Shown: one piece after another, positions 8,708 to 64,000 of the stretch
How the letters are laid out: each line of letters starts with the position of its first letter
How positions within the stretch are numbered: position 1 is the first letter of the stretch
DNA from: a virus
Virus record (IMG/VR): IMGVR_UViG_3300020445_001256
Location: 1 to 64,000 of that record
Direction: 5' to 3' (one strand)
DNA length: 64,000 nt
Translations under genes and position numbers: made by a program
Notes under the pieces: generated by a model
Seen by the model: only the letters and a program-made list of their open reading frames with translations
Database searches by the model: none
What the model was told of the DNA's origin: nothing

Positions 8708-8715
8708 GATAAATA
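8708..8715 (+). promoter_or_regulatory. Late-promoter-like GATAAATA
   Basis: GATAAATA 32 bases before the ATG at 8740, matching the geometry of the exact TATAAATA boxes at 5841, 15567 and 17050. Confidence 0.5.
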
Positions 8716-8739
8716 ACCATATAGGAAAGCGAATAGGTA

Positions 8740-40343: not shown

Positions 40344-40526
40344 ATGATCTATGTACTATACAATGATCAACATGAACAGCAAGGAGAGTTTTCCACAGTC
40401 GAAACATTAGAGACTTATATGGATAACATTCGTGAACATCGTGATGAACGTTGGCCTAAGACACCAAGGATGACTTGTTTTGATTATATTAAGTCAATTG
40501 GTTGGTCATTTGATATCAAAGTATAA
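40344..40526 (+). CDS. Small protein, unknown function
   Basis: 60 residues starting MIYVLYNDQHEQQGEFSTV. It shares one base with the oxygenase gene that follows. No family recognised. Confidence 0.55.
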   Translation: MIYVLYNDQHEQQGEFSTVETLETYMDNIREHRDERWPKTPRMTCFDYIKSIGWSFDIKV

Positions 40527-44050: not shown

Positions 44051-46050
44051 TGCAACCGAATAATCTTACAGCATTAGATTTTACCGATGTTAAAGCATCT
44101 ATTAAGTCCTATTTGAGGACTCGTGAAGAGTTTACTGATTATGACTTCGATGGAGCAGCATTATCGTATCTAATCGATGTATTAGCGTATAATACCTATT
44201 ATACGTCATTTAATGCTAATATGTCATTAAATGAAGCGTTTTTACCTTCTGCTACAGTTAGAGACAATATTGTAAATATTGCAAAATTACTAAATTATGT
44301 TCCACGTTCTATTATTGCATCCCAAGCAACTATAAATTTAGACGTTCAAACAACGCAAACAAGTAATTCATATCCAAGTACTATTACCCTTGCTAAAGGA
44401 CCAGTAGTATCTGGTGGTAAGTATTTCTTCAATGTCGTTGCACCTACTACTGCATCTGTTGATTCTGTTACAGGAAAGGCGACTTTAAGTGATCTTGTAG
44501 TTAGACAAGGATCTATAGTTTCATTTTCTTATATTGTTAATACTTTCCAACAACAGACTTATGTAATCCCTTCTCCTAACTGCGATATTAGCACTTTAAG
44601 TATTAGGGTAAAAGCAAACGAATCTTCAACAACATCTGATTTATACAATAGAGTAGACACAGTAACTAATCTTACCGCTACTTCAAGGATATTCTTCCTC
44701 TCTGAGGGTGAAGATATGCGTTATGAGGTTAAATTTGGTGATGATAGTATAGGTCGTGCTTTAAAAGATGGAGAAGTTGTTACTCTTGAGTACCTAGTTA
44801 CGGATGGTGCTGAAGCAAATGACATCAATAGACTCTCATTTATTGGTCAAATTAGCGATTCTTTAGGAGGATCTTACACTGCATCCGATACTACGCTCAC
44901 AATTGTCAATAAATCTCAATTAGGAGCCGCAGCTGAGTCGGTTGAATCTATTAAATACAATGCTCCACGGTATTATTCTTCTCAATATAGAGCAGTTACC
45001 GCACAAGATTACGCTTTAATTACTAAAAAGGTATATGATAACGCAGATTCTGTAGTTGCATATGGTGGAGATTCATTGAATCCTCCAATTTACGGAAAAG
45101 TATACATTGCTATCAGAACTAAAACAGGATCATTACTCAATGATCAGACTAAAAAGACTATTGCTGCTTCACTTAGGAACTATGCAATGGCATCTATTGA
45201 CCCTGTAGTCATTGATCCAGAGAATATTTTCATATATCCTAAAGTTTTTGTTTCATATGATACAGGATGCGGATCTGATACATCAACAATTAAGACTAAT
45301 GTGTCAAATGCTATTACTGATTGGGCTAGTCAAACACAAATAAACAATTTTAATTCTACCTTTAGATCACAGGAGTTTGAAAAAGCGGTTACATTGGCAG
45401 ACAAATGTGTAACTGACGTTTCACTTCAGACAACTATTCTAAGGTACATTAATCCAATTACCAACTCAACCAACACATATACCATTTCTACTGGTTCAGC
45501 ACTCTATAACAGTGCTCCTAGTTCGACTGATGTTACATCTACAACTACAACAAAAGAACCAATCTTGTTATCTGGATCGTTTAGAACTTCTGACAGACCA
45601 GGTATTGATCAACAATTTGAAGATGATGGTTTTGGTAAGTTAAAAACCTTCTATAATACTGGAACTAGAAAGGTTTACACTAACACTAGTGCGGGTACAG
45701 TAAATTATGACACTGGAACAATTGCTTTTGGACCAGTTAATATAATTGGATCTGGATCTAACGTATCAACAACTGCAGTTACAATCACTGATTCCACTAC
45801 TGGTGTTGGTAGTGTTAGTGATGCATCGTTGCTTCCTACTGGATTACAGATTCCTGTTCAGTTTATTCCTGCGAACTCTAGTAGCATTCCTGCTTCTACA
45901 CCAGGAACTATTATTAATATCGTTTTACCAGAAATAACAGTCGCTGCAATTGGAACGACTCCACCTCCTACTATCCCACTAAATAGTTTGACACCAACAA
46001 TCTTTGATCAAACACCATCAACGGTTGCAGTCACATCCAGTTCATCATAA
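44050..46050 (+). CDS. gp6: Baseplate wedge protein gp6
   Basis: 666 residues (T4 gp6 is 660). The N-terminus (DVKASIKSYLRTREEFTDYDFDG is a known opening, here residues 13-35) and YNTYYTSFNANMSLNEAFLP are characteristic of gp6 and gpJ-like wedge proteins. Central GDDSIGRALKDGEVVTLEYL and APRYYSSQYRAVTAQDY match the J-like domain. gp6 forms the continuous ring that holds the baseplate together. The C-terminal tail is Ser/Thr/Pro rich. Confidence 0.92.
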   Translation: MQPNNLTALDFTDVKASIKSYLRTREEFTDYDFDGAALSYLIDVLAYNTYYTSFNANMSLNEAFLPSATVRDNIVNIAKLLNYVPRSIIASQATINLDVQTTQTSNSYPSTITLAKGPVVSGGKYFFNVVAPTTASVDSVTGKATLSDLVVRQGSIVSFSYIVNTFQQQTYVIPSPNCDISTLSIRVKANESSTTSDLYNRVDTVTNLTATSRIFFLSEGEDMRYEVKFGDDSIGRALKDGEVVTLEYLVTDGAEANDINRLSFIGQISDSLGGSYTASDTTLTIVNKSQLGAAAESVESIKYNAPRYYSSQYRAVTAQDYALITKKVYDNADSVVAYGGDSLNPPIYGKVYIAIRTKTGSLLNDQTKKTIAASLRNYAMASIDPVVIDPENIFIYPKVFVSYDTGCGSDTSTIKTNVSNAITDWASQTQINNFNSTFRSQEFEKAVTLADKCVTDVSLQTTILRYINPITNSTNTYTISTGSALYNSAPSSTDVTSTTTTKEPILLSGSFRTSDRPGIDQQFEDDGFGKLKTFYNTGTRKVYTNTSAGTVNYDTGTIAFGPVNIIGSGSNVSTTAVTITDSTTGVGSVSDASLLPTGLQIPVQFIPANSSSIPASTPGTIINIVLPEITVAAIGTTPPPTIPLNSLTPTIFDQTPSTVAVTSSSS

Positions 46051-46062: not shown

Positions 46063-49000
46063 ATGACAAGTATCAATAAGGTTTCACAGGCAGTCAATAG
46101 ACAGACTCCCGAATTTGTAGAGCAGGATTATCCTCTCTTTAATAAGTTTCTTGAGTATTATTATCAATCTCAGGAAAAAACAGGTCTAGGACAGAATATT
46201 CTTAATAACTTCCTTGGTTATTTGGATATTGATAAACTAGACATTAGCATTCTGGATGGTGCAACGAAGGTAGTAGAATCAATAAGTGCGACAGACGATA
46301 TAATAATTGTAGAGAGTGTTGATCAATTTCTTGAGAACGATGGTTCTGTTCTCATAGGTGATGAAGTAATTTACTATGAAAAAGCACAAGCTGGACCCAA
46401 TATTGCTCTAAGTCCAGGTGTTTCTTATGATCAGGTTAAATTAAAGTGGATTAACCTTGCAAGTCCATTAATGAGTTTTGATGGGTCTAGACAATCTTTC
46501 CCATTAACATCTCAAGATAATCCTATTGCTCCACCTTCTGTGCAGCATTTGATTGTTAGTAATTACGGTAAGGTTTTAATTCCTGGTACAGACTATAGTG
46601 TCGAAGGAACAAATATAATATTCACTACTGCTCCTAGAACTAGAATACCTGCTGATGATGCGTCATCAACTTATATTACTTACTTAAACGGTTTTAATGA
46701 GAATACGATTGTTGCTTTAGACAATCTTTCTGGTAGTTTTGGTGAAAGTAAGAGACAATTTACTATTACTAGATCTGGTGCAAGATATGAACCTATTGCT
46801 GATGAATATGTTCTTGCAATTTATGATAATCGTCTATTAACTCCAAAAGTAGACTTTTTCATCGATGGTGATCAATTTATCTTCTTAACAGCACCATTAA
46901 ACGGTAGATTCCTTTCATTATTCTCTATTGAAGCACCTATTCCTTCTTTTGGTGCTGGTGCTGTAGGTTATGCACGTATTAGTGATACTGGAACTCTAAC
47001 TGGTATTTCTATTAGTAAAAATGGTACTGGATATAAGTCTGAGTATCCTCCAAAGATTTCTATTAATACTGAGAATGGTAGCGGTGCTTCTGCTTCTGCT
47101 TTAGTTAATGGTCTTAAGAGTATTGCACTATTAGAAGGTGGTCAGGGATATAGTAGCACTAATCCACCTGTAGTTCAAGTTCAAGCACCTACTGCTGTAG
47201 GAGCAACTGCAGCAACTGTTTCTGCGACTGTTACTAATGGTGCTGTCAGTGCTCTTACAATCACTAATTCTGGTTCTGGATATACATTCACACCTAGAAT
47301 CACTTTCAGGCAACCAGGAGGTGCTGTACTAGGCACTCCAACCGTTGTTAATGGACAGATTACTGCAGTAAGTATTACTAGTTCTGGTTTTGGATATACA
47401 ACTGTTCCAACAGTCTATATTGATGAACCAACTGGTACAAATCCAATTAAAGCAGCGTTCCAAGCAGTTTTAAGTAGTGATGGTGAAATTACATCCATTA
47501 ACATTTTAAATGCTGGTCAAGGGTATACATCTACTCCTAGAATGGCAGTTATTGACCCAGTAGGTGCTCAAGTTCTTGAAACTACTGTTGATAATCAAGG
47601 TAGAGTAACAAATATTGAACTTTTAAGTGGTGGTGTAGGTTATAGTGATGTTCCTTCTGTTTATATCGTAGATAACAGAACTGATGCTACTGGTGCATAT
47701 GCTGGTGGAACTGGTGCTATAGCAACTGCATCAATCTTCAATGGTCAGATTACAGATATTAATATTAGTGCTTTTGGTGGAGGATACAGTCAATCTGCTC
47801 CTCCCGTGGTTGTTATTCAAGCACCTCCTGCTGCTGAAGCATCTGCGGAGATTGGTTTAAATGAAGTTACTGGTTTTACAGTAAATCAAGCTGGTAGCGG
47901 ATATCAGAAGGCACAATTGACTGGATGTGCTCGTGCTGCGTCTTCTATTACTTCTTATACGGAAAGTGGTAACGCAATATTTACAAATAATACTATTGCA
48001 TCTGCACATGCGGTAGATGAACCAATTAAGTGCTTAGATGCGTTATTTGTTAAGAGATTACTTGACAAGTACACAGAACAGTATTTACCAGATGTTCCTA
48101 CATTAGATTACTCTAAAATTGATGTTAGAACAGCAATTAAGACAATTAAGGACTTTTATAGTTCTAAAGGAACATCATATAGTATTGGATATCTCTTTAA
48201 ACTACTTTATGGTGAGACAGTTAGTATATCTTATCCTAAAGATCAGATAATCAAACCATCTGCTGCAACATGGTCTATTGACACTATTTTGCGTGCTACT
48301 TTAGTTAGTGGTGATCCTACAGATATTCAAGACGGTCTTTTAACCCAAGAAGCGGATATTGCTGACCTTAATGTTAAAGAAGCAAGTGCTCTTGTAGAAA
48401 ATTATATTTCAATTAGAACATCACAAGTTACCATATATGAATTAGTTCTTTCCGAAGAAACTATTGCGGGAACCTTTATTGTTCCTTATAAGACAAAATT
48501 AGCAGAACCGCTTAATAAAACTGAATCTATTATTACTGTTGACTCTACAATTGGTTGGCCTGAAAGAAACGGTGAATTTATTATTGGTAGTTCAACTGAT
48601 ACTAGAGAAATTGTTCAATATAAGGAAAAATCATTAAACCAGTTCATTGAGTGTACTAGATCAGTAAATGGTGTAGTTGAGGACTGGGATTCTGCTACAG
48701 AGGTAAAATCTAACTTTAATGTTTACATTAATAAGGGAACTCCTCAAGAAGTGGTGATGAATATTGTTGGTATCGTTGATGCTCAACAAACAACTCTTAC
48801 TGATACTGGATCTTACTACTTACCTGGTGATAAATTAACAGTTTCTAAGTTAGGTGGAACAGGAACTACTCCTGAACTTACAACTTGGTTGTATAACGTT
48901 AAAAAATTAATCGAAGTTACTTCTGTAGCATTTGGTGGTATTAATAACCAATCCGCGACTATTACTTGTAAGAATGATCACGGTCTTTTGGTAGGAGATC

Positions 49001-52000
49001 AGGTAACCATCTATGGTGCTAACCCAATCCTTTATAATGGAACATTTCTTGTAACATCTAGAGATAGTGATACTGTTTTCCAATATGCATTACCTCAACC
49101 TGCTACTGTTATCCCACAGGGTAATATTCTGGTATCTATTGACCTTAACAAAGGTAAATCTACTAGTACTGCAATAAACAATGCTATTAGTCCTTATACG
49201 ACTAACGTTCAGAACTCATTCTTTAACGACAATTACGTTTATCTTGCTTCTACTGGTATTCCAAACTATAATATTGGACCTTTCCCAGGATCAGCACTTC
49301 TTCCTGGTAACCAAAGAAAATTAACAAGATTCCCTAAAATACCTACTACAATTTCTACAAAGGACTTAATTGGTGCTGGTCCAATTGGAACTTGGGTAAA
49401 TGGTGTTTCTGTATGGTCTTATAAGTCAAGTTTAACTAAGACATTTGGTGCTATAACAAGTATTGGCATTACAAATGCTGGTTCAGGTTATGATGCTGCT
49501 TCTCCTCCTGCTATTACAATTTCTGGTGGTGGAGGTTCTGGTGCTACTGCTTCCGTAGTTGTTGACGGTGCTATCAGTGAAGTTACTGTAACTACTGGTG
49601 GATCTGATTATACATCCTCACCATTGGTCTCTATAGTCGGTGGAGGAGGGTCTGGAGCTGCTGCAACCGCTATTATTACTAAAGGTGTTGTTTCACGTAT
49701 TCTAATCAATTCTGGTGGAACTGGATATACTTCACAACCTCAAATTACTATTGTAGGTGGAGGTGGTTCTGGTGCTGCTGCTACCGCATCTGTTAGAGGT
49801 CCGATTAAAACTATTAACGTTGCTTCTGGTGGTTCCGCATACACATCTAAACCTAGTGTTACTTTAAGTTCTGGTTCTGGTGCTGTTGCACAAGCAATTG
49901 TACAGAATGGACGTATTATATCAATTGCTATTATATCTGCTGGATCTGGATATACTACTGCTCCTGAAATTACTATTCAAGGTGATGGTTTTGGTGCAGT
50001 TGCTAGAGCAACTATTGACGTTGATGGAGAAAATGCTGGTAGAGTTACTAATATTGAGATTATTAACCGAGGTATTGGATATCTTCAAGGAACTACTATT
50101 ATTAATCTAGATTCAGTTGGATCTTCTGCATTATTCAGTGCAAATGTATTTGAGTGGACTTATAACTTACAATCAACCGCAACTTTAGACTCTGCAAAGG
50201 GTGGTGTATTTGAAGGATATAATAATCAGTATGGTGGTGAATATGCCCACCTTTCTAACCCACAAACACTAAGATATATCTTAGGTGATAACCTTTATGA
50301 GTCAAACACTGGTACAATCCTAGAAAAAGAGGATTCTGTTGTTCACTCACCTATTATTGGTTGGGCATTTGATGGTAACCCAATTTATGGTCCTTATGGA
50401 TATTCTGATCCAACTGACCAAGGTTCTGTAATAACTAGATTGAGTACTTCATACAGGGTTAAACCTGCTCTTATATATGATGCTGCAACTAATCCATACC
50501 CAGTTAGAACTGATGGACCTTTACTTACGGATACAGATAGTAATGGAACTCTATTGTATCCATATGGTTCTTTCGTTGAAGACTACGAATATGTTTTTGG
50601 ACTAGGGGATCTAGACCAATATAATGGTCGTTTTTGTAAAACACCTGATTATCCAACTGGTAGATATTGCTATTTTGTTACTATTGACAATACTACTGCT
50701 GGTAATCCTGAATTCCCATATGTTTTAGGACCAAGTTTCAACTCTGTTGTAGATAAGTGGAATTTAAGCACTTCTGCTGTTCAGCAGAACATTCCTACTG
50801 GTGTTGTCCGTTATAGAGACCCATATGAGAATGTTGACATTGATGTATCAAGAGCACCTAATGTTTCTACAAATGCTCTTACAACTGAATCTGGAGATAT
50901 AATCTTATTTGAAGTAGAAGATGAAGATAGAAGTGGTGTAATAGATCAGATAGAAACTGATGATCCAGATCAAATGTTTGAAGAATCACCTTTACAGTTA
51001 TTTGATTACTTCCCTAAAGTAACATTTGACTCTAAAGTTGATATTGAAGTAGAAACTATCACTAAATTTGAAGATGCTTCTGTAAATGGATTTACTATTG
51101 AAAACCCAGGTATTAACTATCAGGTTAATGACCGTTTAGAATTTGATAATACTGGTACTGATGGTACTGGTGTTTCTGCTCGTGTTTCTAGAATTAAGGG
51201 TGAAGCAGTTGAAAGTTATAGTTTTGAAAACATTAGTGGAGAGAATTTTGGTGTTTTAAAGACTACAGAACCTCATAACCTAGTAATTGGTGATAGTGTC
51301 TTTGTGACATATAATCCAATAATGAATAATACGAACAAGACCTTTACTGTTCGTCAATTCAAAGGTATTGAAGAAATTGTTATTAATCAGACTGGTTCTG
51401 GTTATAATTCTGATATTCCTCCAACAATTACTATTGATAGTGCTACTGGAAGTGGTGGAGAATTACAAGCAGTTGTAACTTCTGTTGGAGCAATCGAGAC
51501 TGTTAATATTATTAATTCAGGTTCTGGATACACAACTAATCCTCGTGTTATTCTTTCACATCCACAGGTGTTTAAGAAAGCAGATTACTATGTTTCTAAG
51601 ATTGATAATAACAACTATGTTAAAGTAAATGACGTTGTTATTAATGAAAATAAAGAAATCTTTATTTGTGGTAAAACAAAGGATACTAATGGTAACGAAA
51701 TTGGTTTTGTTTCTAAATTATCTGCAACTGGTGTTAAAGAATGGGAGAAAAATTTAGAACTTACTGGTGGTGGACAATATTGTGAATTCCAAAAACTTTA
51801 TGTTGATGGAAATGATGTTTGGGTTGTTGGTAACAATAGACCAAATAGTAATCTTTTAGATTCATATAACCCAGATATTATTCTAGCCAAGTACACTCAA
51901 GCATCAAATGGTCTTAGTGCAACACTAGGATTCCAGAAAGGATATGCTGGTATTTCTGGTTCTACTCGTTCTGATAGTGTAACTGCAATTACTAAACTTT

Positions 52001-55000
52001 CTGATACTAGATTTGTTATAGGTGGTTATACAAATACAAACTCAACTAATCCTTTTGATGCATATATTGCTCTTATTGATACAACAGGTAATTTTGCACT
52101 TAAGAGAAAGGTTGCAGGTACTACTACTTCAGAAAAAATTACTGGATTAGTTGTTAATGCTGGTAATGTTTATTTCTCTGTAGAGAGTGCTGCAAGTCCT
52201 AATGCTACTGCTATTGATCTTGGATTAGGTAAAGCAACAATTGGTACTAGTGCAATTACTATTGATTATGTTAAAACATATTCAAATACTTCATATTCAT
52301 TCTTAGATTCTAGTATTTGTATTGATGAATTTAATGAAATTTATTTAACTGCAACTTGCAGACTTAAGGCAAATAATACAACAAAGAATAGTTTCTGGGT
52401 TGGTAAAACAGATATTGATGGTAATCTTATTTGGAACTATAGGTATCAGATACCTAATGAAAGTGGCACAGAATATGCAATTCAAGCAGTAAGTAAGACT
52501 GCAATTGATGTTTTTGGTGATCTTAACGTTGGTGTTACTTTAACAAGTGGAATTAACGGTCTTAAGACTGCAAGATCCTTTAAGATTGGTTATAGTGGTA
52601 ATCTTAAGGAACATTCATCTAATCTCTTCAATCTTAATAATGTTGAAGGTGTTACTATTAATTCGTTAGATGTTGATAATTCTGGTGATGTTCATCTATA
52701 TGGTCAATCTTCTTGGAATAGAAATGAATTCTTATTACCATTCACAGGTGGAGCAACAACAGATACAACTGGTCATTATACTCCAACTATAGTAACTACA
52801 GGAGGTTCATTAAGTTATGAAAATACTGTCCAAGGTGGATATGCAAAAATACTCGGATCTCAACTTGCAAGTCCAACTGTCTGGGAAAATGCTTACATTA
52901 AGTTCCCAGCTGCGGATCTTGGGACTAAACTTGCTGACGATTGGACTATAGAATTCTTCCTTTATAGGGATAGTTCAAATAGTAATGTATTCAGTCAAAA
53001 TGAAGAAACTCTAATTTCTATTGGTGATGCAACAGTCACAACTGGTGGTCTTTGGTTATACTTTGAAATTAGTACTGGTAAGATTGGATTAGCAGTTACT
53101 AATAATACTACTGCTTTAAATGCTGGAAGTGCTCAACTTAGCACAGCAACCACAATATATGCTACTAATACTTGGCAAACTATTGGATTAAAGAAAGAAG
53201 GAAATATATTTACTGTTTATAGTAATGGTATTCAAGTAATTCAATCTACAGTTCCTGATACTTCATTAGGTAGTAAAGATTTAGTTATTGGTAATATTTC
53301 TGGTAGAAGTGGAACTCTTAATAACTGGCGTTCAAATGAACAGGGTCAATACCATGTTGATAACTTACGTTTGAGAAACAGAGCAGTTACACCAACTGTT
53401 CCTAGTGATATTGGTGTTTTACCTCTTGCTGGAGCATTTTCAATTGGATATAATTGGGAAGATGATGCTTGGTTTACTACTAACTTAAACAAGTTTGATT
53501 ATATTGATTACACTGGTATTGGTATTAAAGTTGATAAGAATGCTGATGCTGCAAGAGTTGGTACTTATACAGAAAGAACTAATACTAAGTTAGGATTTAT
53601 TAGAGCAGATGAAATAGGAACTACTATTACTCCTACATCACTTACTGTTGTAACAACAGGATTTGCATTAGCTGATGCTGGATTCCAAGGTTTAGACTTT
53701 GATGATGCCACTATAACAATGGCTCAAGATACTGAGACTATGACCTATACTCAGGACGTATGGAGTTCTAGAACTGCTACTGTTCCTTCACCAGGTTCTC
53801 AGAAGTTATCTGTATCTGCTGTAGTTAAAGACAAATACTATTTCAAAGTAACTAATACTATAAAAATTGATAATGTTCAAGAACTTACTCTAAATCAGGC
53901 GTTTAATTTTACTACAGGAACAAAATTAAGACTTAATAATAATGCAGGAACCTTTGTTAATAGTGGATACATTATCAGACAGGATACTACTAATAATAAA
54001 ATATATCTTGCAATTAATAATAATGCTTGGTCTAATGATCTAAACACAGGTAACTTAGTTACAGAACAGTTTAGTGAGCAAAGCACTTATGGTATTGTTG
54101 GACCTATTCCTGCTGATGTTAATGAAATTGTAGGATATACATTTGCTCAGGTTAACAATACAACTCCTGGAACATTTGATATTGATCTTGATGATTATAA
54201 TTTAAGTGGTACTGGTTATAATGCAGGTGGTGGACAAGACCTTGATAGTTATGCTAAGTTTAAACCTTATTCTGATAATGATTATTCAGTAAGAATTGAT
54301 GAAGTTACTACTGGATCACCATATATCGTTGGTTCTGTTATTAATATTACCGATAGTAATATTTCATATAATGCTGCTTATTCTACTGCACAAATTACTG
54401 GTTTAACTGCAGTTACCAAAATTACATTAGTTGCAAATCTAACTAAGATTCTTCAAGTTAGTGCAGTATCTAATAGTGATGAAGTTTATGTAATTACTGG
54501 AACAAGTCATTACCTTTCTGCAGGTGAGATGATTTATGTTGATGGTAACCCAACAGAGAACAGTCTTGACGAGTATGATGGTGCATTTGCTGTTAATTCT
54601 GTTGTAAGTCCATTAGAATTTACATATAAACTAAAACAGGTAGCAACTACTTCTCCTGCTACATCAGCAGGTAGCGTTAACATATTTGTTAAATCTCCTG
54701 TATTGAAGATGTATTATGGTCACCAGTACATCTTTGACATGAGTCATAGTTCATTACTTGGTGGTAACTTATCATTCTCTAAAGATAACCTATACAAACT
54801 TGAATATTCATTCAACTCAATTGAAAGAACTGGAACTCCTGGTGTAAGTGGAGAAGGTGTTCCTACACCTATAGTTAAGTTAAAAGTTGATGATAATATT
54901 TTAACTAACATATCATACTACTTTGATCCTTCAAGAATTGGAGCAGATTCTCCAATTAATCCTTCTAGTTACCTAGATGTTACTAATTCTCCATATAAGG

Positions 55001-58000
55001 GAACATTCTCAATTAGTTCTGTTGCTGGTGCAACAATTACTCGTGGTGCTGATACATTCAAATTCCCTCTATTAGATGAACCAGAAGGTGATGCTGAAGT
55101 ATCTCAGACAACTTATAGTACAAGTTCTGTTAAAGCAGTTGGATCTATATCTGATGTTCGTATTGTCAACTCTGGTGGATTCTACACTAGACTACCAATT
55201 GTAAGTAGTATTACTTCTACAAGACAGATTGAAAGAGTTGCTATTGAGGATCCAGGTACTGAATATGCTAATGGTGTTTATAACGCTGTTCCTATTGCTG
55301 GTAATGGTGAAGGTGGATTAGTTGAAATTACTGTTGCTGATGGATTAGACAGTGAAGGTGTAACTATTCCAGGTCAAATTCAAGCAGTTACAGTTACTTC
55401 TCCAGGTAAAAATTATACTACTGCATCAATTGATATTGAAGCAATACCTGGTATTCTTGGAGCAGGATTAACTGGTTCTGGTGCTAAATTAACTGTTGTT
55501 ATTCCAAATGCAGGTACTCAGGCATCTATCTTTACTAAGGCAGATAAAGTTGGTAAGATTAAGAAACTTAAGAATAATAACTTTGGTTATGATTATCCTC
55601 ATGACTATACACTACGCCCTGAGATTTCGTTCCCAATAAACGCACAGCTTACTTCTACAAGTATTCTTTCTAGTATTACTGTTACAAATCCAGGTTCTGG
55701 ATATTCACAAGCACCTGCTGTTGTAATTACAGGTGGTGGTGGATCTGGTGCAACTGCAGAATCATCTATTAAGAATGGTAGATTAGACATAATCATTGTT
55801 AAGGATCCAGGTGCTGGATATTCTTCTACACCAACTGTTTCACTTAAGTCTTCATTCAACTATGTTGTTAACCTTGACTTAGGTCTTTTACAGTTTGCTT
55901 TCCCACATGGTATTACAAATGGTGCTGCTGTAACTTTAAACGTAGTTGATACAGGAGATGGTGCTGATTTCCCACTTGCTGCTGGTGCTGTTGGTCGTCT
56001 TAATGGAACTACTACTTATTATGCAATTTCTGGTGCTGCAAATTCACTAGAAAATGACCAATTAAAACTTGCTCTTACTGCAGCAAATGCTGAATTAGGT
56101 GACGCTCTTTCCTTTGTTAACGCTGGTGAAGGTCGTCAACAAGTATTAACTGAATCATTTGGTGGTTCTGCTACTGCAAACGTTATCACTTCTACTTTCT
56201 TAGAAGGAGAACTTGTTTATCAAGGTGATTCATTAGATACTGCAACTGCTACTGGATACGTTTCTACTAACCAAGGTTGGCAGATTGGACCTAGAATTCT
56301 TAAGATTGTTGATTATACTGGAACTTTCGCAGAGACACAAAAGGTTACTGGTGTTATTTCTAAGTCTTCAGGTACTATTAGTGATTTAAATATTGCTCGT
56401 GGTGTTCTTGAAATTGGTTCTATCACTAAAACTACTGGTCAATTCATTGATGATGTTGGTAAACCATCTGAGATTATTCAGAAGATCCAAGACTCTTACT
56501 ATTATCAGGACTTCTCTTATGCTATTAAGTCTGCTGTTTCTATTAGTGAGTGGAAAGAGATTCTTATTAAGAACGTTCACCCTGCATCATTTAAGGTATT
56601 TGGTGAGTTAAATCTATCTGATTATGGATTTATTCCAAATAAAGATACAGATTTCCAACTTACTAAGTCTGTTGAACTTGCAAGAGAAGCGATTGTTCCA
56701 AATATTCAAAGTTTTGCTCTTGTAGAACCAATTTACTCAGAATTTAATAATACAGAGGTTTTATTCCGTCAGAAGAGATTGACATCTTCTGAGAACATTT
56801 TGACTTCTGTTGTACAGAGAATTGATGATATTTCTGGTCAATTTGATGGTGAGAAGATTGCATTCCCTCTAACAGTTGATGGCAACACCGTTGTTGCTAA
56901 CGCTAATCAGTTAATGATTGTTTTGAATGGTATTGTTCAGAACCCTGGAACTGCATTTGAGATTCAAGGTGATTCTATCGTCTTTAGTGAACCACCACAA
57001 CCACCTGCAAGTGTTAAGTATGTTAATATTAAAATATCACAGATTGCAATTGTAAGTAATACATTTACTAACCAAAGTGGTATTTTCCCAAGTCCAGGTA
57101 ATGTTTTAACTGGAACAAACTCTGGTGCTAAATTGACTGTAACTTCTGTTGTTGGTGATACTATATTTGGTTTCATTACAGAAGGAACATTTATTGCTGC
57201 AGAAAACGTAACTGTTAGTGCAACTGGATTTAGTGCTAACTTAGATGTTCAAAGTAATGTTTCTAATATTGGATTATTCCAGTATGGAGAACAAGTTAAG
57301 AACTTAACTAATGATACTGCTAAAGTAGAACAGATTAACCTACAAAGAGGTTTGGAAAATGCATTAGCACAATTACGTTATACAGTTGGTCCTTCTACAA
57401 CTTCAATAGAAGTAGTTCCTGATGGATCAACTACAGATGGTCCTGTTCCTGCTGGAACATTTACAACCAGTACAAGTTATCAACTTGGATCTGAAGTTGT
57501 TACTGTTACTAATATTGTTGATGGAAATGATTCAACAACTCTAACAGTTAGCAGAGGACAAAATGGAACAGTTGCTGTTTCACATCAAGAAGATTTCCCA
57601 ATTTACGGAACTGTTATTGCAGTAACAGATGAACTTACTTTAAGTAAGACTGCTGGAACATATAAGTCTACTCCAGGTCTATTTGATATTCAATTAAATG
57701 ATGTTATTATTGGTGCTAAATCTGGTGTTGTTGCTCGTGTTACTCAAACAAGTGCATATCAAGATCCTACAACTCAAGAATTTATAAGTCAGGTTAATAT
57801 TTCTGAAGGATCATCATTCTTTGGTCTATTGATGAATAGAATTTCATCTACATCATATCCAAATATTGTTCTTGATGATATTTCTAAATCACAAGTTAGT
57901 GTTGTTCAGTATACTGATAATACTACTGCTTTCAACTCACAGTTCCCTGCTAATGAACAACTTAATAATATCGTAGTTCCTTATGATAATCTAGTTGGTG

Positions 58001-61000
58001 GACCTATTCAAGAGAATGAAACTATTAGAAATTACAAACTTAAGTATGGTGGAAATACTGGTGAATTTATTGCTGGAGAAGGTGCGAGAGCAAGAAAACT
58101 TTCTTACATCAATCCTAAAGGTGATGGATTCTTTGCTAAAGGTCAAGTACTTAGAACTCAAGATACTAAAGCAGAAGTTCTTGGATTTAATCAGGCAGAT
58201 CAGGTAATCTATCTTGGTAAAGTTGGTAGAACAAAGGCAAATGGTCAAGACTACCATATCCCATCATTCTCCAATAGTGCTCAACTGGATACCACAGTCA
58301 AATACTATGGAACTGCTTCATTACAATTAGCAGCAGCAACTAACGATTATGTCACTATTCCTTCTTCAAGTGAATTTGCTTTTGGAACAGGTGCATTTAC
58401 TATAGATCTAATGTTGCGTCCTGCTGCATCTTCTATAAGTGGAACTGCTACTATACTTGATATGAGAGCATCTGCTGCGAATGAAGTTGCTGGTAGACTA
58501 TACTTACAAGCAGGTCAAGTTCGTTGGAACGTTAATAATGCTGATATAGTTACTTCTGGTGCTACAGCTCTTACTGCAGATACTTGGGTTTATGTTTCCA
58601 TTATGAAGTCTGGTACAACAACTAAGATTTTATTAAATGGAGTTGAAGCAGGTACAGCAACAGATAACACAACATATGTTGCAAAACCAATTAGATTAGG
58701 TTCTGATTATGCTGGTGCTAATAGTTTAACTGGATTCATTGATGAATTAAGAGTATCTAATACTAACCGTCATCAAACAATTCCATTTACTCCTCAGAAT
58801 GGTATTTGGCAGGGTGATGCTAATACTAAGTTATTATTACACTTTGATGGTGCTGATGCTCAGACATGGACTGAAGATTGGTCTGGTGCAGAAGGATTTA
58901 CTGCTGGTGAAGACTTTAATAATGATGCTATAATAGCTTCAACTCGTTCTTCTAATGCTACTCCTGGAGGATTTACTGGTAATACTCAAAGATATTATGA
59001 TGCTGCTGATTTAATTCTTCTTAATAAGGAATTCCTTGCTCAAGAAGTTGTTTATATTCTTAAAGAAAGACATCCTCATCACACTGTTAAGGGTAGTGAA
59101 GTTGATTGTGAAGATGATGTTCGTGATGTATTAGATGCTATTATTTCTGACCTTCGTAATGGAACAAATAATAAGATCTGGGATGCATCTTCATACTATG
59201 TTGATAGAACATCATCTCCAATCGTATTGAAGTTTGTTTCTAATGAAGTTGATGAAGTAGTTTACACTTATGACAAACTTGAGGAAATGCTCAAGTATAT
59301 TGTTAATAATACTCTTTGGGATGTTCAAGGTGATCATGGTTTAGTACAGAAGACTGATTCTACTATTACAGAAGCTAGTGGTTTAACCACACAAACCTTC
59401 CAGCCTACTGCTGCTGCATATGATGCAGAAAGTGGTTATATGGTATTGACTGCTTCTGGACATGGTATGAGAGCAGAAAGAGGAATTACTGCAACTGGTG
59501 CTAGTTATACTGCAACAACAGGTGTTTTACAATTAACCGTTGCTACTACCACATTTAGTGTATCTACTGCAACTTATGACCATACAACTGGTGTTATGGT
59601 CATAACAATTGGTTCTCATAGTTTGACAACCAATGATAATATTAGAATTGCCACTGGTGGAATTACATTTAGTTGTAACAACGGTGGAGTTAGTACTGGT
59701 GCATATCCTCGTGCAAATGGTGCTAATACAGAGAGTGGTGCTGACTATGCATACGATAGATGGCTTCCAATCCTTGCTGTAGGTGCAACAACTATTACTG
59801 TTAATGTTAATGGTGGTAAGGGTGCTATTAGTCATGCCTTTGCACACACATATTCAACTTCTTCTGCAGGATGTATTACTGCTGGTCATGGTCTTAATGA
59901 GGGAGATAGAATCAAGTTTGATCCTAATTCTCTTGTAATGAATTGCACCTCTGATGGTAATACAGTTAATCAGAGTTATCCAAGACCTGATGATCCTGCT
60001 GCTCAAGGTTGGTTAGAAGTTATAGAAAATACTAGTACTACATTTGATGTAAACGTTGGTAAATCACCTACTGTAAATTATACAGCAAGTGCTGGAACTT
60101 ATGATGCTGATACTGGTTTCTTAACCATGAATATTGGTCAGCATAACCTAAGAACTAGTAGAAAGTATACTGCAACTAATGCTGATTACACTGCATCTTC
60201 AGGTGCAATGAAGATCACTATTGGTGATAATATTGATGTTCATGATGCAAGTTATGTTGCTAAGAATGGTTTATTAAAATTAAATATTGGTCATCACAAC
60301 TTCAAACAAGGTAGTTTAGTTAAGATTGCTCCTAACTCACTATTCTTTACATGTAGTATGGATGATCATCAATCAGTTCATGCATATCCAAGATCATCTG
60401 ATCCTGTTTACAATGATGATATTGAAGTTATTGATATAACTGATGATACTATTACTGTTGATGTGGGAACATCTCCAGAAGTTTCATATACACCTACTGG
60501 TGCAACTTATAACACCTCTACAGGTGACATGGTTCTTACCATTGGTGCTCATAGTTTAGCTGCTGGAACTAGTATAAGACTTTTAGATGAATCTATAGCA
60601 TTCAGTTGTAGTTTTGGTAGTGGTGGTACTAGTTCATATCCTCGTCCTACAGTAGACACTAAGAATGTTCAAACAGCATCTTATAATCCTCAAAGTGGTA
60701 TATTATCCGTAACAACCACTGCTGCACATAACTTAACTGGTCCTACTGCTAAGAATGTTACTGATGCTACTTACAATGCATCTACAGGTATTTTACAATT
60801 AGAATCTGCTGGTCATGGATTTAGTCTTGGTGATAAGATAAGAATTAAAGATGATGCTTTAGTGTTTACTTGCACTAAAGATGGAAATGCAACAAACCAT
60901 ACATATCCAAGATCAACTGATCCTGTAAGTGGTCAATGGTTGACTATTGTTGCTAAAGCAACTGATACGATTGATCTTCAAGTTGGTGCTTCTAAGATTG

Positions 61001-64000
61001 GTTTAAATGAATTTGCTCATACATGGGCTGGTGGTACTGCAAGTAATGCTATTGAAAAAGCAAATGATGTAATTAAGATTGTTGATGAGTCATTAACATT
61101 TACTTGTGCTATGGATAATAATGGCACTAACCATTTGTATCCACGTTCAACTGACCCAATTAGCGGTAGATGGTTAATTATTGAGAATGTTGCATCAACT
61201 ACTTTCGATGTTCAAGTTTTAGATAACGCTCCTTCTACTAACACATCTGCTCACACATTTGTTACTGCTACAACTGGTGCTATTCAAGCTAAGAGAGACC
61301 CTGCTCAAGGAACTGCACTTCCAATTACTGCTGTAGGTGCAACAACTATTACTGTTAACGTTACCCCTGTTACTTCATATAGTTCAACAACTCATACATT
61401 CCAGTCTGCATCTCAAGGTGCTGTTAAGGTTGGTGGTGATTACACTCATAAATTTGTAGATGCTGCCTCTGGTGCTATTATTCCTAATCACGGATTCTAT
61501 ACTGGTGATAGAATTATGTTTGAGGAAGGATCATTAGTCTTTACTTGTGGTATGGATAGTGATGCTACTAGACATGCATATCCAAGAGAAAGTGATCCAT
61601 TCTATAATAAATGGTTGCCAATTAGTAGTGTAACTACAAATACTTTTAATGTTAATGTTGGAACAACTACTAATACACAATTTACACCTACTGGAGGAAC
61701 CTACGATGGAACCACAGGTAAATTAGGTATTACTATTGGTGCTCACACACTTGAAGTTGGTCAACATATTAAGATTGCTACTGGTGGAATTTCATTCACT
61801 TGTGCAATGGATGGTGGTACTGCTGTTAAGGCATATCCTCGTGCAACTGATCCAGCAGACGGTGTTACTCTTCCAATTCTTGAAAGAACTGATACTACTA
61901 TTACTGTTGATGTTGGTCAATCACCTTATGTTTACTTTGATGTTTCTGCTGCTACCTACAACCCAACATCGGGTGTCATGGTACTTACAATTGGAGATCA
62001 TGGATTAACTGCTAATACAAGTATTAGACTTAAAGATAATTCATTAACCTTTAGTTGTGATAATGGTGGTGTTGGAACTGGAACTTATCCTAGATCAAGT
62101 AATGACTACGTTTATCAGAAAGCAATTAATATTGATTCTGTAACTGATACTACAATCACAATTAATGTTAATGGTGGTCAAGGTGCTATTACTAACACCA
62201 ATGCTCATACATTTGTAAGTGCTTTACCTGGAGCAGTTATTGCTGGTGGTGCTTGGGCTCATACTTATTCAACTGCTGCATCAAATGCAATTTCAGTTGG
62301 TGGTAACTATACTCATAACTTTAAATCTGCAACTCCTGGTGGCATAGTAAGAGCTGGTGAGACTATTAGAATTGCTAAAGATGGTATTTCATTCAAGTGT
62401 TCACAAGATGGATATCAAACAATTCATTCATATCCTAGAACAGATGATCCTGGATATAACACTTCTCTACCAATCTATAATGATGGAACATCTTATACTG
62501 CATCTAATGCAGCATATAATGCATCGACTGGAGAGATGGTTATCACTATTAATTCACATGGATTTACAACCAGTGATCAAATTAGAATCGAAAATAATTC
62601 ACTAACATTTACTTGTGTTAAGGATAGTAATACATCTATCCATAGTTATCCTAGAGATAACGATCCTTATGTTCGTAGATGGTTGAGAGTTAGTGCTGTT
62701 ACTGAAAATACATTCACTGTAAATGTAGGTAAGGCATCATCCTCAACACAACAGTACGCACACACATTTGCTAGTGCTGCTAAGAATGGTATTACCAAAC
62801 GTGATAATACTGTTACAGTTAACGTTGGTGCTACTCCAACTAAGAGTTTCACACCGACTGCATCAACTTATAATCCTTCAACTGGTGCTTTAGCATTAAC
62901 TATTGGATCACATAGTCTACCAGCTCCAACCACACATACACCAACTGATGTTGCATATAATCCAACAACAGGTATTATGACTCTTACTATTAATGGTCAT
63001 AACTTCTCTAATGGTGAAAAGGTTAAGATTGCTGATGGTGGATTGAAATTAAGTTGTGCATTTGGTGGTGCTTCAGGTGGTGCTGCACAGAAAGATTACC
63101 CACGTTCAACTGACCCAATTAGCGGTAAGTGGATTCCTATTTCTGGTGTAACTACAAATACATTTGATGTTCAAGTTCTAGATGTAATTCCTTCTACAAA
63201 TACTGACACTCATTCATTCGTATCTGCTGTTACTGGATGTGTAAGTAAAGCAAATTCAACAGTTAAGATTGCTGAGAATTCACTAGTTTATAAGTGTGCT
63301 GAAGATAGTAATGCTACTGAACATGCTTATCCAAGAAGCAACGTTGCTACTCATACAGCAGGACCAGGAACAAATTATAATCCTGTTACAGGTGTTCTAA
63401 AACTTAGTGTTCCTACAGAAAGTCATACACCTTCCACAGCAACATATAACCCAACAACGGGTGATATGGTTCTAACTCTAGATTCAACTTCTGGAACATT
63501 TAATGTTTCTAATGCAACTTATAACACCTCTACAGGTGATATGGTACTTACTATTGGATCTCATAGTTTAACCACATCAAATAGAATTAAACTTAAAGAA
63601 GGATCTTTGAAGTTTGCATGTAACTTTGCTAATGATAATTATCAGACTGCAAAAGCATATCCAAGAGCTTCAGGTGCTAATACTACTAATGGTGCTGACT
63701 ATGCATATAATACATTCTTACCAATTACCGCAGCTGATGCTACAACTATTACTGTCAATGTTAATGGTGGTCAAGGTGCTATCAGTAACAATAATCAGCA
63801 TAACTTCTTAACTGCTGATGCTGGTGCAGTTATTGTTGGTCATGGACTAGAAGTTGGTGATAGAATTAAGATTGCTGATGAATCATTAACCTTTAGTTGT
63901 GATAATGGTGGTGTTGGAAATGGTTCATATCCTAGATCATCTAATGACTATGTTTATCGTAAGTGGATTAGAATTAGAGCAGTAACTGGAACTACTATTA
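46063..64000 (+). CDS. Giant virion structural protein, probably baseplate appendage (3' end outside window)
   Basis: Open for 5,979 codons from ATG 46063 to the right edge with no stop. Twelve bases after gp6. Regions by residue: 1-300 folded N-terminus (MTSINKVSQAVNRQTPEFVEQ); 300-620 repeats with GxGYxxxP; 640-900 a helical part with AIKTIKDFYSSKGTSYSIGYL, seen in cyanophage baseplate proteins; a second GxGY block to 1350; a YHYH-type segment WAFDGNPIYGPYGYSDPTD near 1430; an SBBP-like beta-propeller near 1850-2050; a LamG-like domain near 2280-2450; further GxGY repeats near 3020-3270; a second LamG-like domain near 4100-4260; then about 100-residue repeats with YPR from 4450 on. Size and layout suggest a long appendage or sensor on the baseplate. 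Confidence 0.85.
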   Translation, partial: MTSINKVSQAVNRQTPEFVEQDYPLFNKFLEYYYQSQEKTGLGQNILNNFLGYLDIDKLDISILDGATKVVESISATDDIIIVESVDQFLENDGSVLIGDEVIYYEKAQAGPNIALSPGVSYDQVKLKWINLASPLMSFDGSRQSFPLTSQDNPIAPPSVQHLIVSNYGKVLIPGTDYSVEGTNIIFTTAPRTRIPADDASSTYITYLNGFNENTIVALDNLSGSFGESKRQFTITRSGARYEPIADEYVLAIYDNRLLTPKVDFFIDGDQFIFLTAPLNGRFLSLFSIEAPIPSFGAGAVGYARISDTGTLTGISISKNGTGYKSEYPPKISINTENGSGASASALVNGLKSIALLEGGQGYSSTNPPVVQVQAPTAVGATAATVSATVTNGAVSALTITNSGSGYTFTPRITFRQPGGAVLGTPTVVNGQITAVSITSSGFGYTTVPTVYIDEPTGTNPIKAAFQAVLSSDGEITSINILNAGQGYTSTPRMAVIDPVGAQVLETTVDNQGRVTNIELLSGGVGYSDVPSVYIVDNRTDATGAYAGGTGAIATASIFNGQITDINISAFGGGYSQSAPPVVVIQAPPAAEASAEIGLNEVTGFTVNQAGSGYQKAQLTGCARAASSITSYTESGNAIFTNNTIASAHAVDEPIKCLDALFVKRLLDKYTEQYLPDVPTLDYSKIDVRTAIKTIKDFYSSKGTSYSIGYLFKLLYGETVSISYPKDQIIKPSAATWSIDTILRATLVSGDPTDIQDGLLTQEADIADLNVKEASALVENYISIRTSQVTIYELVLSEETIAGTFIVPYKTKLAEPLNKTESIITVDSTIGWPERNGEFIIGSSTDTREIVQYKEKSLNQFIECTRSVNGVVEDWDSATEVKSNFNVYINKGTPQEVVMNIVGIVDAQQTTLTDTGSYYLPGDKLTVSKLGGTGTTPELTTWLYNVKKLIEVTSVAFGGINNQSATITCKNDHGLLVGDQVTIYGANPILYNGTFLVTSRDSDTVFQYALPQPATVIPQGNILVSIDLNKGKSTSTAINNAISPYTTNVQNSFFNDNYVYLASTGIPNYNIGPFPGSALLPGNQRKLTRFPKIPTTISTKDLIGAGPIGTWVNGVSVWSYKSSLTKTFGAITSIGITNAGSGYDAASPPAITISGGGGSGATASVVVDGAISEVTVTTGGSDYTSSPLVSIVGGGGSGAAATAIITKGVVSRILINSGGTGYTSQPQITIVGGGGSGAAATASVRGPIKTINVASGGSAYTSKPSVTLSSGSGAVAQAIVQNGRIISIAIISAGSGYTTAPEITIQGDGFGAVARATIDVDGENAGRVTNIEIINRGIGYLQGTTIINLDSVGSSALFSANVFEWTYNLQSTATLDSAKGGVFEGYNNQYGGEYAHLSNPQTLRYILGDNLYESNTGTILEKEDSVVHSPIIGWAFDGNPIYGPYGYSDPTDQGSVITRLSTSYRVKPALIYDAATNPYPVRTDGPLLTDTDSNGTLLYPYGSFVEDYEYVFGLGDLDQYNGRFCKTPDYPTGRYCYFVTIDNTTAGNPEFPYVLGPSFNSVVDKWNLSTSAVQQNIPTGVVRYRDPYENVDIDVSRAPNVSTNALTTESGDIILFEVEDEDRSGVIDQIETDDPDQMFEESPLQLFDYFPKVTFDSKVDIEVETITKFEDASVNGFTIENPGINYQVNDRLEFDNTGTDGTGVSARVSRIKGEAVESYSFENISGENFGVLKTTEPHNLVIGDSVFVTYNPIMNNTNKTFTVRQFKGIEEIVINQTGSGYNSDIPPTITIDSATGSGGELQAVVTSVGAIETVNIINSGSGYTTNPRVILSHPQVFKKADYYVSKIDNNNYVKVNDVVINENKEIFICGKTKDTNGNEIGFVSKLSATGVKEWEKNLELTGGGQYCEFQKLYVDGNDVWVVGNNRPNSNLLDSYNPDIILAKYTQASNGLSATLGFQKGYAGISGSTRSDSVTAITKLSDTRFVIGGYTNTNSTNPFDAYIALIDTTGNFALKRKVAGTTTSEKITGLVVNAGNVYFSVESAASPNATAIDLGLGKATIGTSAITIDYVKTYSNTSYSFLDSSICIDEFNEIYLTATCRLKANNTTKNSFWVGKTDIDGNLIWNYRYQIPNESGTEYAIQAVSKTAIDVFGDLNVGVTLTSGINGLKTARSFKIGYSGNLKEHSSNLFNLNNVEGVTINSLDVDNSGDVHLYGQSSWNRNEFLLPFTGGATTDTTGHYTPTIVTTGGSLSYENTVQGGYAKILGSQLASPTVWENAYIKFPAADLGTKLADDWTIEFFLYRDSSNSNVFSQNEETLISIGDATVTTGGLWLYFEISTGKIGLAVTNNTTALNAGSAQLSTATTIYATNTWQTIGLKKEGNIFTVYSNGIQVIQSTVPDTSLGSKDLVIGNISGRSGTLNNWRSNEQGQYHVDNLRLRNRAVTPTVPSDIGVLPLAGAFSIGYNWEDDAWFTTNLNKFDYIDYTGIGIKVDKNADAARVGTYTERTNTKLGFIRADEIGTTITPTSLTVVTTGFALADAGFQGLDFDDATITMAQDTETMTYTQDVWSSRTATVPSPGSQKLSVSAVVKDKYYFKVTNTIKIDNVQELTLNQAFNFTTGTKLRLNNNAGTFVNSGYIIRQDTTNNKIYLAINNNAWSNDLNTGNLVTEQFSEQSTYGIVGPIPADVNEIVGYTFAQVNNTTPGTFDIDLDDYNLSGTGYNAGGGQDLDSYAKFKPYSDNDYSVRIDEVTTGSPYIVGSVINITDSNISYNAAYSTAQITGLTAVTKITLVANLTKILQVSAVSNSDEVYVITGTSHYLSAGEMIYVDGNPTENSLDEYDGAFAVNSVVSPLEFTYKLKQVATTSPATSAGSVNIFVKSPVLKMYYGHQYIFDMSHSSLLGGNLSFSKDNLYKLEYSFNSIERTGTPGVSGEGVPTPIVKLKVDDNILTNISYYFDPSRIGADSPINPSSYLDVTNSPYKGTFSISSVAGATITRGADTFKFPLLDEPEGDAEVSQTTYSTSSVKAVGSISDVRIVNSGGFYTRLPIVSSITSTRQIERVAIEDPGTEYANGVYNAVPIAGNGEGGLVEITVADGLDSEGVTIPGQIQAVTVTSPGKNYTTASIDIEAIPGILGAGLTGSGAKLTVVIPNAGTQASIFTKADKVGKIKKLKNNNFGYDYPHDYTLRPEISFPINAQLTSTSILSSITVTNPGSGYSQAPAVVITGGGGSGATAESSIKNGRLDIIIVKDPGAGYSSTPTVSLKSSFNYVVNLDLGLLQFAFPHGITNGAAVTLNVVDTGDGADFPLAAGAVGRLNGTTTYYAISGAANSLENDQLKLALTAANAELGDALSFVNAGEGRQQVLTESFGGSATANVITSTFLEGELVYQGDSLDTATATGYVSTNQGWQIGPRILKIVDYTGTFAETQKVTGVISKSSGTISDLNIARGVLEIGSITKTTGQFIDDVGKPSEIIQKIQDSYYYQDFSYAIKSAVSISEWKEILIKNVHPASFKVFGELNLSDYGFIPNKDTDFQLTKSVELAREAIVPNIQSFALVEPIYSEFNNTEVLFRQKRLTSSENILTSVVQRIDDISGQFDGEKIAFPLTVDGNTVVANANQLMIVLNGIVQNPGTAFEIQGDSIVFSEPPQPPASVKYVNIKISQIAIVSNTFTNQSGIFPSPGNVLTGTNSGAKLTVTSVVGDTIFGFITEGTFIAAENVTVSATGFSANLDVQSNVSNIGLFQYGEQVKNLTNDTAKVEQINLQRGLENALAQLRYTVGPSTTSIEVVPDGSTTDGPVPAGTFTTSTSYQLGSEVVTVTNIVDGNDSTTLTVSRGQNGTVAVSHQEDFPIYGTVIAVTDELTLSKTAGTYKSTPGLFDIQLNDVIIGAKSGVVARVTQTSAYQDPTTQEFISQVNISEGSSFFGLLMNRISSTSYPNIVLDDISKSQVSVVQYTDNTTAFNSQFPANEQLNNIVVPYDNLVGGPIQENETIRNYKLKYGGNTGEFIAGEGARARKLSYINPKGDGFFAKGQVLRTQDTKAEVLGFNQADQVIYLGKVGRTKANGQDYHIPSFSNSAQLDTTVKYYGTASLQLAAATNDYVTIPSSSEFAFGTGAFTIDLMLRPAASSISGTATILDMRASAANEVAGRLYLQAGQVRWNVNNADIVTSGATALTADTWVYVSIMKSGTTTKILLNGVEAGTATDNTTYVAKPIRLGSDYAGANSLTGFIDELRVSNTNRHQTIPFTPQNGIWQGDANTKLLLHFDGADAQTWTEDWSGAEGFTAGEDFNNDAIIASTRSSNATPGGFTGNTQRYYDAADLILLNKEFLAQEVVYILKERHPHHTVKGSEVDCEDDVRDVLDAIISDLRNGTNNKIWDASSYYVDRTSSPIVLKFVSNEVDEVVYTYDKLEEMLKYIVNNTLWDVQGDHGLVQKTDSTITEASGLTTQTFQPTAAAYDAESGYMVLTASGHGMRAERGITATGASYTATTGVLQLTVATTTFSVSTATYDHTTGVMVITIGSHSLTTNDNIRIATGGITFSCNNGGVSTGAYPRANGANTESGADYAYDRWLPILAVGATTITVNVNGGKGAISHAFAHTYSTSSAGCITAGHGLNEGDRIKFDPNSLVMNCTSDGNTVNQSYPRPDDPAAQGWLEVIENTSTTFDVNVGKSPTVNYTASAGTYDADTGFLTMNIGQHNLRTSRKYTATNADYTASSGAMKITIGDNIDVHDASYVAKNGLLKLNIGHHNFKQGSLVKIAPNSLFFTCSMDDHQSVHAYPRSSDPVYNDDIEVIDITDDTITVDVGTSPEVSYTPTGATYNTSTGDMVLTIGAHSLAAGTSIRLLDESIAFSCSFGSGGTSSYPRPTVDTKNVQTASYNPQSGILSVTTTAAHNLTGPTAKNVTDATYNASTGILQLESAGHGFSLGDKIRIKDDALVFTCTKDGNATNHTYPRSTDPVSGQWLTIVAKATDTIDLQVGASKIGLNEFAHTWAGGTASNAIEKANDVIKIVDESLTFTCAMDNNGTNHLYPRSTDPISGRWLIIENVASTTFDVQVLDNAPSTNTSAHTFVTATTGAIQAKRDPAQGTALPITAVGATTITVNVTPVTSYSSTTHTFQSASQGAVKVGGDYTHKFVDAASGAIIPNHGFYTGDRIMFEEGSLVFTCGMDSDATRHAYPRESDPFYNKWLPISSVTTNTFNVNVGTTTNTQFTPTGGTYDGTTGKLGITIGAHTLEVGQHIKIATGGISFTCAMDGGTAVKAYPRATDPADGVTLPILERTDTTITVDVGQSPYVYFDVSAATYNPTSGVMVLTIGDHGLTANTSIRLKDNSLTFSCDNGGVGTGTYPRSSNDYVYQKAINIDSVTDTTITINVNGGQGAITNTNAHTFVSALPGAVIAGGAWAHTYSTAASNAISVGGNYTHNFKSATPGGIVRAGETIRIAKDGISFKCSQDGYQTIHSYPRTDDPGYNTSLPIYNDGTSYTASNAAYNASTGEMVITINSHGFTTSDQIRIENNSLTFTCVKDSNTSIHSYPRDNDPYVRRWLRVSAVTENTFTVNVGKASSSTQQYAHTFASAAKNGITKRDNTVTVNVGATPTKSFTPTASTYNPSTGALALTIGSHSLPAPTTHTPTDVAYNPTTGIMTLTINGHNFSNGEKVKIADGGLKLSCAFGGASGGAAQKDYPRSTDPISGKWIPISGVTTNTFDVQVLDVIPSTNTDTHSFVSAVTGCVSKANSTVKIAENSLVYKCAEDSNATEHAYPRSNVATHTAGPGTNYNPVTGVLKLSVPTESHTPSTATYNPTTGDMVLTLDSTSGTFNVSNATYNTSTGDMVLTIGSHSLTTSNRIKLKEGSLKFACNFANDNYQTAKAYPRASGANTTNGADYAYNTFLPITAADATTITVNVNGGQGAISNNNQHNFLTADAGAVIVGHGLEVGDRIKIADESLTFSCDNGGVGNGSYPRSSNDYVYRKWIRIRAVTGTTI
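47029..50100 (+). repeat. GxGYTxxP beta-repeats in the giant protein
   Basis: About fourteen units of 35-60 residues with ITNSGSGYTFTPR-like cores in two blocks (47029-47910 and 49470-50100), with more near 51100-51560 and 55150-55850. Each has a turn G(S/T/Q)GY followed by (S/T)xP and a glycine/alanine-rich strand. This is a common phage-appendage repeat that likely forms a beta-solenoid. Confidence 0.7.
50338..50610 (+). other. YHYH-type domain segment in the giant protein
   Basis: IIGWAFDGNPIYGPYGYSDP and later GRFCKTPDYPTGRYCYFVT match the YHYH domain (GxPxYGPYG..., Y-HY-H region). Proteins with YHYH domains occur in cyanophage baseplates and marine bacteria; the function is not known. 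Confidence 0.7.
52890..53400 (+). other. LamG-like domain 1 in the giant protein
   Basis: WTIEFFLYRDSSNSNVFSQN, WQTIGLKKEGNIFTVYSNG and DNLRLRNRAV are the successive strands of a LamG/concanavalin-like jelly roll, a carbohydrate-binding fold. Confidence 0.65.
58360..58860 (+). other. LamG-like domain 2 in the giant protein
   Basis: FGTGAFTIDLMLRPAASS, WVYVSIMKSGTTTKILLNG and GFIDELRVSNTNRH followed by LLLHFDG are the canonical concanavalin/LamG signatures. Confidence 0.75.
59400..64000 (+). repeat. Tandem YPR repeats at the right end of the giant gene
   Basis: At least fifteen units of roughly 75-120 residues, each with a FTCxxDxxxxxHxYPRxxDP core followed by WLxIxxV and TITVNVG, and a preceding AxYxxxTGxMxLTIxxH strand pair. 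YPR occurs near 59710, 59980, 60390, 60640, 60910, 61140, 61575, 61835, 62090, 62435, 62650, 63100, 63330, 63660 and 63930. The array continues beyond the window. Confidence 0.8.

Follow-up and report, generated by a model that had tools for sequence, protein, structure and literature searches.

A known counterpart of the protein treated here is gp7 of phage T4, of which each of the six baseplate wedges holds one copy, assembled with gp6 into a heterotrimeric bundle with two gp6 chains. T4 gp7 (PHROG 964; PDB 5hx2 and 5iv5) has a length of 1032 aa, and about 640 of its residues stand before the stretch that concerns us, 643-832 when placed by way of Sinorhizobium phage phiM7. The protein gp92 of that phage (PHROG 17744) occupies the gp7 slot and is of T4 gp7 size, 1006 aa. 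In cyanophages the same slot after gp6 is taken by a giant structural protein, PHROG 701, with P-SSM4 gp7 (YP_214641), P-RSM4 PRSM4_106, S-SM1 SSM1_102 and S-TIM4 ORF_101 as examples. That members of this family are parts of the virion has been shown for homologues by published mass spectrometry, since the same-slot protein of S-SM1, T4-GC969, was detected in virions in this way (PMC3037559), and a shorter homologue, ORF122 of S-CREM2, was found in virions with 91 peptides and 27% coverage (PMC10665884). ORF101 of S-TIM4 goes unnamed in the main text of the host-adaptation paper. Ocean waters hold cyanomyoviruses in abundance, and most annotations call their largest structural gene only "structural" or "hypothetical protein". 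The family is thus already on record, P-SSM4 being one example, and the protein described below is a large member of it, which limits the surprise of finding it.

The window, that is the whole stretch of DNA analysed, is the first 64 kb of a virus record of 87,447 bases. A megablast search returned 228 phage records, all of them named for Synechococcus, Prochlorococcus or cyanophages. The giant gene is the next one after gp6 in the wedge cluster and is followed by gp9, a wedge protein of 1,646 aa, gp8 and VrlC; the order gp25-gp6-giant-gp9 is the same as in relatives and, read from gene order, the window is that of a T4-like cyanomyovirus (Kyanoviridae). The features are as follows, with residues numbered in the giant protein.

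43631..44050, + strand: gp25, baseplate wedge subunit, assigned from its position and from the gene order of relatives
44050..46050, + strand: gp6, directly upstream of the giant gene, with a Gp6-like match (PF21379) and a match to phrog_219, baseplate wedge subunit
46063..64000, + strand: giant gene, in-window part, residues 1-5979 of 8214, with its stop at contig position 70707
46063..46398, + strand: gp7-type core, first half, residues 1-112, from alignment with compact homologues (hmmsearch 6-109)
46399..47898, + strand: core insert, residues 113-612, from the alignment, with a mostly confident all-beta model
47899..48672, + strand: gp7-type core, second half, residues 613-870
50155..50694, + strand: YHYH domain (PF14240), residues 1365-1544, 98.6 bits against a cutoff of 25
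52453..53052, + strand: probable second domain of lectin-like type, from reading the sequence by eye, about residues 2131-2330
58339..58770, + strand: LamG or concanavalin-like domain (PF13385, Laminin_G_3), residues 4093-4236, 59.3 bits against a cutoff of 27.6
59602..64000, + strand: YPR array, in-window part; the whole array is residues 4514-6646, contig 59602-66000
contig 70733-71959, downstream of the giant gene: gp9

A sequence-only reading of the window had described a frame of at least 5,979 codons just after gp6, running for 17.9 kb with no stop, and had proposed to look for its end past the right edge. The listing of open reading frames agrees, as 46063..63999 (+) is 5,979 codons free of stops and open at the window edge, starting with the ATG at 46063; the distance from the gp6 stop, at 46050, is twelve bases. 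The end was located beyond the window at contig position 70707 (L002:10708, where L002 is contig 60000-79000), and the joined frame has 8,215 codons with one terminal stop, which gives a protein of 8,214 aa with a computed mass of 876 kDa and a pI of 4.7. For the base composition here a random frame of this length has a log10 P of about -280, so the open frame is not a product of chance. An assembly error or a fusion of genes could create a long frame, but we rejected this explanation, to which we give practically no credence, because the single frame recurs in contigs and isolates that are independent of this record. An independent contig of 9.6 kb (L021) matches residues 1-870 with 100% identity, and a second independent contig of 130 kb (G001; L023+L213) has a frame of 8,217 aa, colinear with this one at 91% amino-acid identity, which differs by five indels only, each of a single codon. 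The comparison with G001 gives a dN of 0.056, a dS of 0.301 and a dN/dS of about 0.19, and purifying selection is seen in 18 of 18 segments (dN/dS 0.07-0.31), which means that the full length is under selection at the protein level.

The remark that most phage proteins are smaller holds as a general rule, but in marine cyanophages giant products of this gene are the norm. The giant is homologous end to end with the PHROG 701 members except in the repeat array, sits like them in the gp7 slot and exceeds 6,000 aa; with P-RSM4 the identity is 72% over residues 1-4187, and the C-terminal block is also common to both. Its 8214 aa compare with 6167-7312 aa in closer isolates and with up to 9131 aa in uncultured relatives. 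The frames in the same slot measure 7312 aa in P-SSM4, 7124 in P-SSM7, 6932 in S-SSM4, 6603 in both P-RSM4 and S-TIM4, 6395 in S-RIM8, 6378 in S-RIM2, 6180 in S-SM1, 6167 in S-CAM8, 5512 in S-H38 and 5195 in P-SSM2, and in more distant cyanophages they shrink to 4067, 3495 and 1937 aa. Among the IMG/VR contigs that hold both ends of the gene, 8,214 aa is an ordinary length. One may ask if the polypeptide is made in one piece and then cut into several structural proteins at assembly, with parts that might function separately. An ocean contig (G009, behind L050) has two open frames of 4754 and 3209 aa instead of one, and in metaG-MbCM1 (L009:2179-21945) the giant region is annotated as three genes; sequencing errors or natural breaks may lie behind this. 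Against this, a single frame of 6180-9131 aa is present in 21 of the 22 two-ended IMG/VR contigs (a set that includes two isolates, S-SM1 and S-TIM4), each of the nine closer isolates also has one single frame, and no cleavage site was noticed in passing; we regard cleavage as improbable.

Residues 1-112, with a mainly helical N-terminus, and residues 613-870 form one conserved unit when aligned with homologues of the P-SSM2 and SynMITS9220M01 types. Between them lies an insert of about 490-500 residues, partly made of GSGYT-type beta repeats, which is missing from both types of homologue. A profile built from 33 homologues, searched against all PDB chains, found T4-type gp7 only (E=4.8e-5 and 9.1e-5), and hhalign, comparing the core with six T4-like gp7 sequences, gave a probability of 96, where the E-values are those of a single comparison and the alignment is convincing only around T4 730-760. 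As a control for specificity, T4 gp6, gp8, gp9, gp10, gp11 and gp12 score a probability of 0.3 or less. In the opposite direction, the T4 gp7 profile picks the giant alone (E=2.2e-6) when gp6, gp25, gp9, the 1646-aa wedge protein, gp8 and VrlC are tested beside it. The helix motif KDFYSSKGTSYSIGYLFKLLYG at about residues 695-723 is common to the giant and to T4 gp7 at 730-758, and the core, specific for gp7 in these comparisons, carries the pattern FYSxKG...LFKxLY; the Pfam family Baseplate_wedge (PF23786) reaches 26.7 bits near residues 685-729, just below its cutoff of 27.

The likeness to T4 gp7 has clear borders. The Pfam gp7 domains Gp7_helical, Gp7_5th and Gp7_6th are found in T4 gp7 and were not found in the giant, where domains V and VI go unrecognised, and the shared part is therefore limited to the core. 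The giant does not have the full T4-type architecture, these domains in about 1,000 aa, and for that reason we file it as a gp7-core protein and not as a T4-type gp7. Unlike in T4, its core is N-terminal and split by the insert, and about 7,300 residues follow. A phmmer search of the giant in three pieces against the PDB found no gp7, and its one meaningful match was a head-spike fibre; T4 gp7 was reached in the PDB by the profile only. The AlphaFold model of residues 1-870 has low confidence in the core, and Foldseek of this model against the PDB gave no match below 0.001. Matches to T4 gp10 in that search (E 0.3-0.45) are weak and were set aside.

Taken from sequence comparison, the giant is very probably a gp7-core baseplate wedge protein of a T4-like cyanomyovirus. 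The sequence-only reading was right that it contains baseplate-type segments, which we can now name as the gp7-type wedge core, and of its idea of a fibre attached to the baseplate wedge the baseplate part stands. The segments are the gp7-type core itself, so that the protein fills the gp7 slot and is not an extra fibre docked onto the wedge. For cyano- and pelagimyophages it has been suggested that T4 gp7 is missing and has been replaced by VrlC (PMC7029224), in which case the giant would be an accessory receptor-binding protein. VrlC and the 1,646-aa wedge protein do match the core profile, but over a beta stretch only (profile positions 64-130) and without the helical motif, and VrlC is not picked by the T4 gp7 profile. 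Phage phiM7, moreover, has VrlC together with a gp7-sized protein in the gp7 slot, whose N-terminal core matches both T4 gp7 and the giant and which bridges the two families, although unlike the giant it has no repeat arms. The placement of the gp7 core thus argues against replacement by VrlC, an idea that we do not favour and consider very improbable. With the core of the gp7 type at its N-terminus, the giant offers a fixed point for reading the baseplates of cyanophages.

After the core come more beta repeats, then the YHYH domain, a lectin-like region, the LamG domain, the YPR array and a C-terminal block that is conserved in close relatives. The YHYH, LamG-like and repeat domains that had been noticed earlier are all there, the first two with Pfam profile scores above the curated cutoffs. 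In the giant the YHYH signature itself is degenerate and reads YCYF, and YCYF or YAYF stands in its place in 16 of 16 homologues in which the domain was located. The intact motif is part of a proposed metal site, and a hydrolase role has been predicted for phage YHYH domains (PMC7824862); the degenerate motif makes that prediction less likely here. Residues 2131-2330 have no Pfam match and are divergent, with 45-60% identity to isolates; they are probably a second lectin-like domain. The LamG domain is also divergent among isolates. Near the C-terminus, residues 7248-7452 resemble residues 83-254 of Rcc01080, the head spike fibre of the Rhodobacter capsulatus gene transfer agent (PDB 6tb9; E=1.3e-9, a value for the whole sequence). 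Rcc01080 is a separate spike on the capsid, whereas its counterpart here is a single domain within a baseplate protein, close to the C-terminal end.

The greater length of the giant relative to closer isolates is mainly due to the YPR array, in which the YPR motif occurs in exact form 21 times and the HMM matches 24 times, partial matches included, and which makes up most of the extra length. The isolates have 0 to 12 HMM matches, and the 91% identical relative G001 has 21 exact motifs and 23 matches. A stretch of two modules is modelled with confidence (pLDDT 92) as small beta domains, and in each module F-x-C is invariant, YPR nearly so, a D is conserved and an H is often present; a metal site or a cross-link is possible. 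The module model gave no significant match against the PDB (phi92 endosialidase, probability 0.93, E=0.06), and against predicted viral structures it found mainly baseplate and tail proteins of cyanophages. Sequence matches to an iota-carbonic anhydrase (E=4e-4, a stretch of 41 residues) and to a galactose-binding lectin (E=0.66) are weak leads. Matches to phrog_5342, "tail fiber protein", are strongest inside the array.

We consider it rather likely that the giant is a gp7-core wedge protein with beta-rich arms that carry divergent carbohydrate-binding-like domains towards the host. The core (1-112 and 613-870) would, like T4 gp7, join gp6 in all six wedges, and the roughly 7,300 residues after it, together with the insert of about 490, would form beta-rich arms as a peripheral baseplate. 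These arms would bear the fast-diverging carbohydrate-binding-like domains (LamG 4093-4236, lectin-like 2131-2330 and head-spike-like 7248-7452), the expandable array of YPR beta modules would set spacing or reach, and the arms would most likely touch the surface of the cyanobacterium and relay attachment to the wedge. We infer the six copies per virion by analogy with T4 gp7, and the outward arms, the binding of surface glycans and the relay of a signal are likewise parts of the model. The "sensory" role proposed earlier would take its basis from the known place of gp7 in the wedge, and from nothing of its own.

The divergence is unevenly spread along the protein. The LamG, lectin-like and head-spike-like domains have 40-60% identity to isolates and are the hot spots of divergence outside the repeat array and its flanks, while the second core half and the stretch that follows have 77-84%, and the arm at 871-1365 and 2331-4090 has 66-84%. 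Compared with the closest relative, G001, residues 7201-7640 are the least conserved (82%). This pattern fits domains in contact with a surface, and could be a sign of it; relaxed constraint would look similar. The role as a receptor-binding fibre that the sequence-only reading had offered is plausible, and the lectin-like and head-spike-like domains are suggestive of it, but the role is inferred, and separate fibre genes exist. Two adjacent tail-fibre genes at window positions 7218-12723 (493 aa, phrog_693, and 1327 aa, phrog_529) may serve host recognition besides the giant, which accordingly need not be the sole receptor binder. These genes also speak for a scaffold, in which the C-terminal part forms whiskers or a larger peripheral baseplate, holds the separate fibres and makes no contact with the host, as does the make-up of the arm, mostly plain beta repeats with good conservation among isolates. 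The lectin-like domains, on the other hand, are the least conserved, and one domain of the arm resembles a capsid spike fibre. Weighing this, we put the chance that the arms contact the host at about even, and a pure scaffold is the less probable alternative.

If the arms are as we propose, a virion would carry six of them, of about 0.88 MDa each and about 5.3 MDa together. Cyanomyoviruses are reported to be without g10, g11, g12 and the T4 long-fibre genes (PMC2984593). It is a speculative thought, and one we hold to be doubtful, that the gp7 core carries the host-recognition apparatus itself, with arms that displace the layer of T4 gp10, gp11, gp12 and fibres and with a YPR array, of 0 to more than 20 modules across relatives, that is an adjustable element of reach or avidity. 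The LamG domain, the head-spike-like domain and the YPR array can in any case be named as candidates for host recognition that are expressible and testable. Judged from our searches, what is new here is the two-way sequence test of the gp7 core, the anatomy of the insertion, the number of repeats, the finding that the YHYH motif is degenerate, and the mapping of where the protein diverges.

Some smaller observations concern the surroundings of the gene. In the window, a DNA-helicase-like protein (phrog_16, 32056-33384) and a 2OG-Fe(II) oxygenase (phrog_81, 40526-41122) are encoded between the genes for fibres and those for the baseplate, and the wedge cluster of S-H38 contains a gene annotated as a subtilisin-like serine protease (L014:19878-21530). 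For S-PM2 the late-promoter motif NATAAATA has been reported (PMC2984593). The late-promoter-like core ATAAATA occurs 10 times in the window, always on the + strand (35 copies are expected by chance on both strands), at positions 1354, 2489, 5311, 5842, 8709, 15568, 16817, 17051, 30143 and 43892, and several of these copies lie 25-40 bases upstream of gene starts. One further copy (L002:10705-10711), a short way ahead of gp9, shares bases with the stop codon that ends the giant gene.
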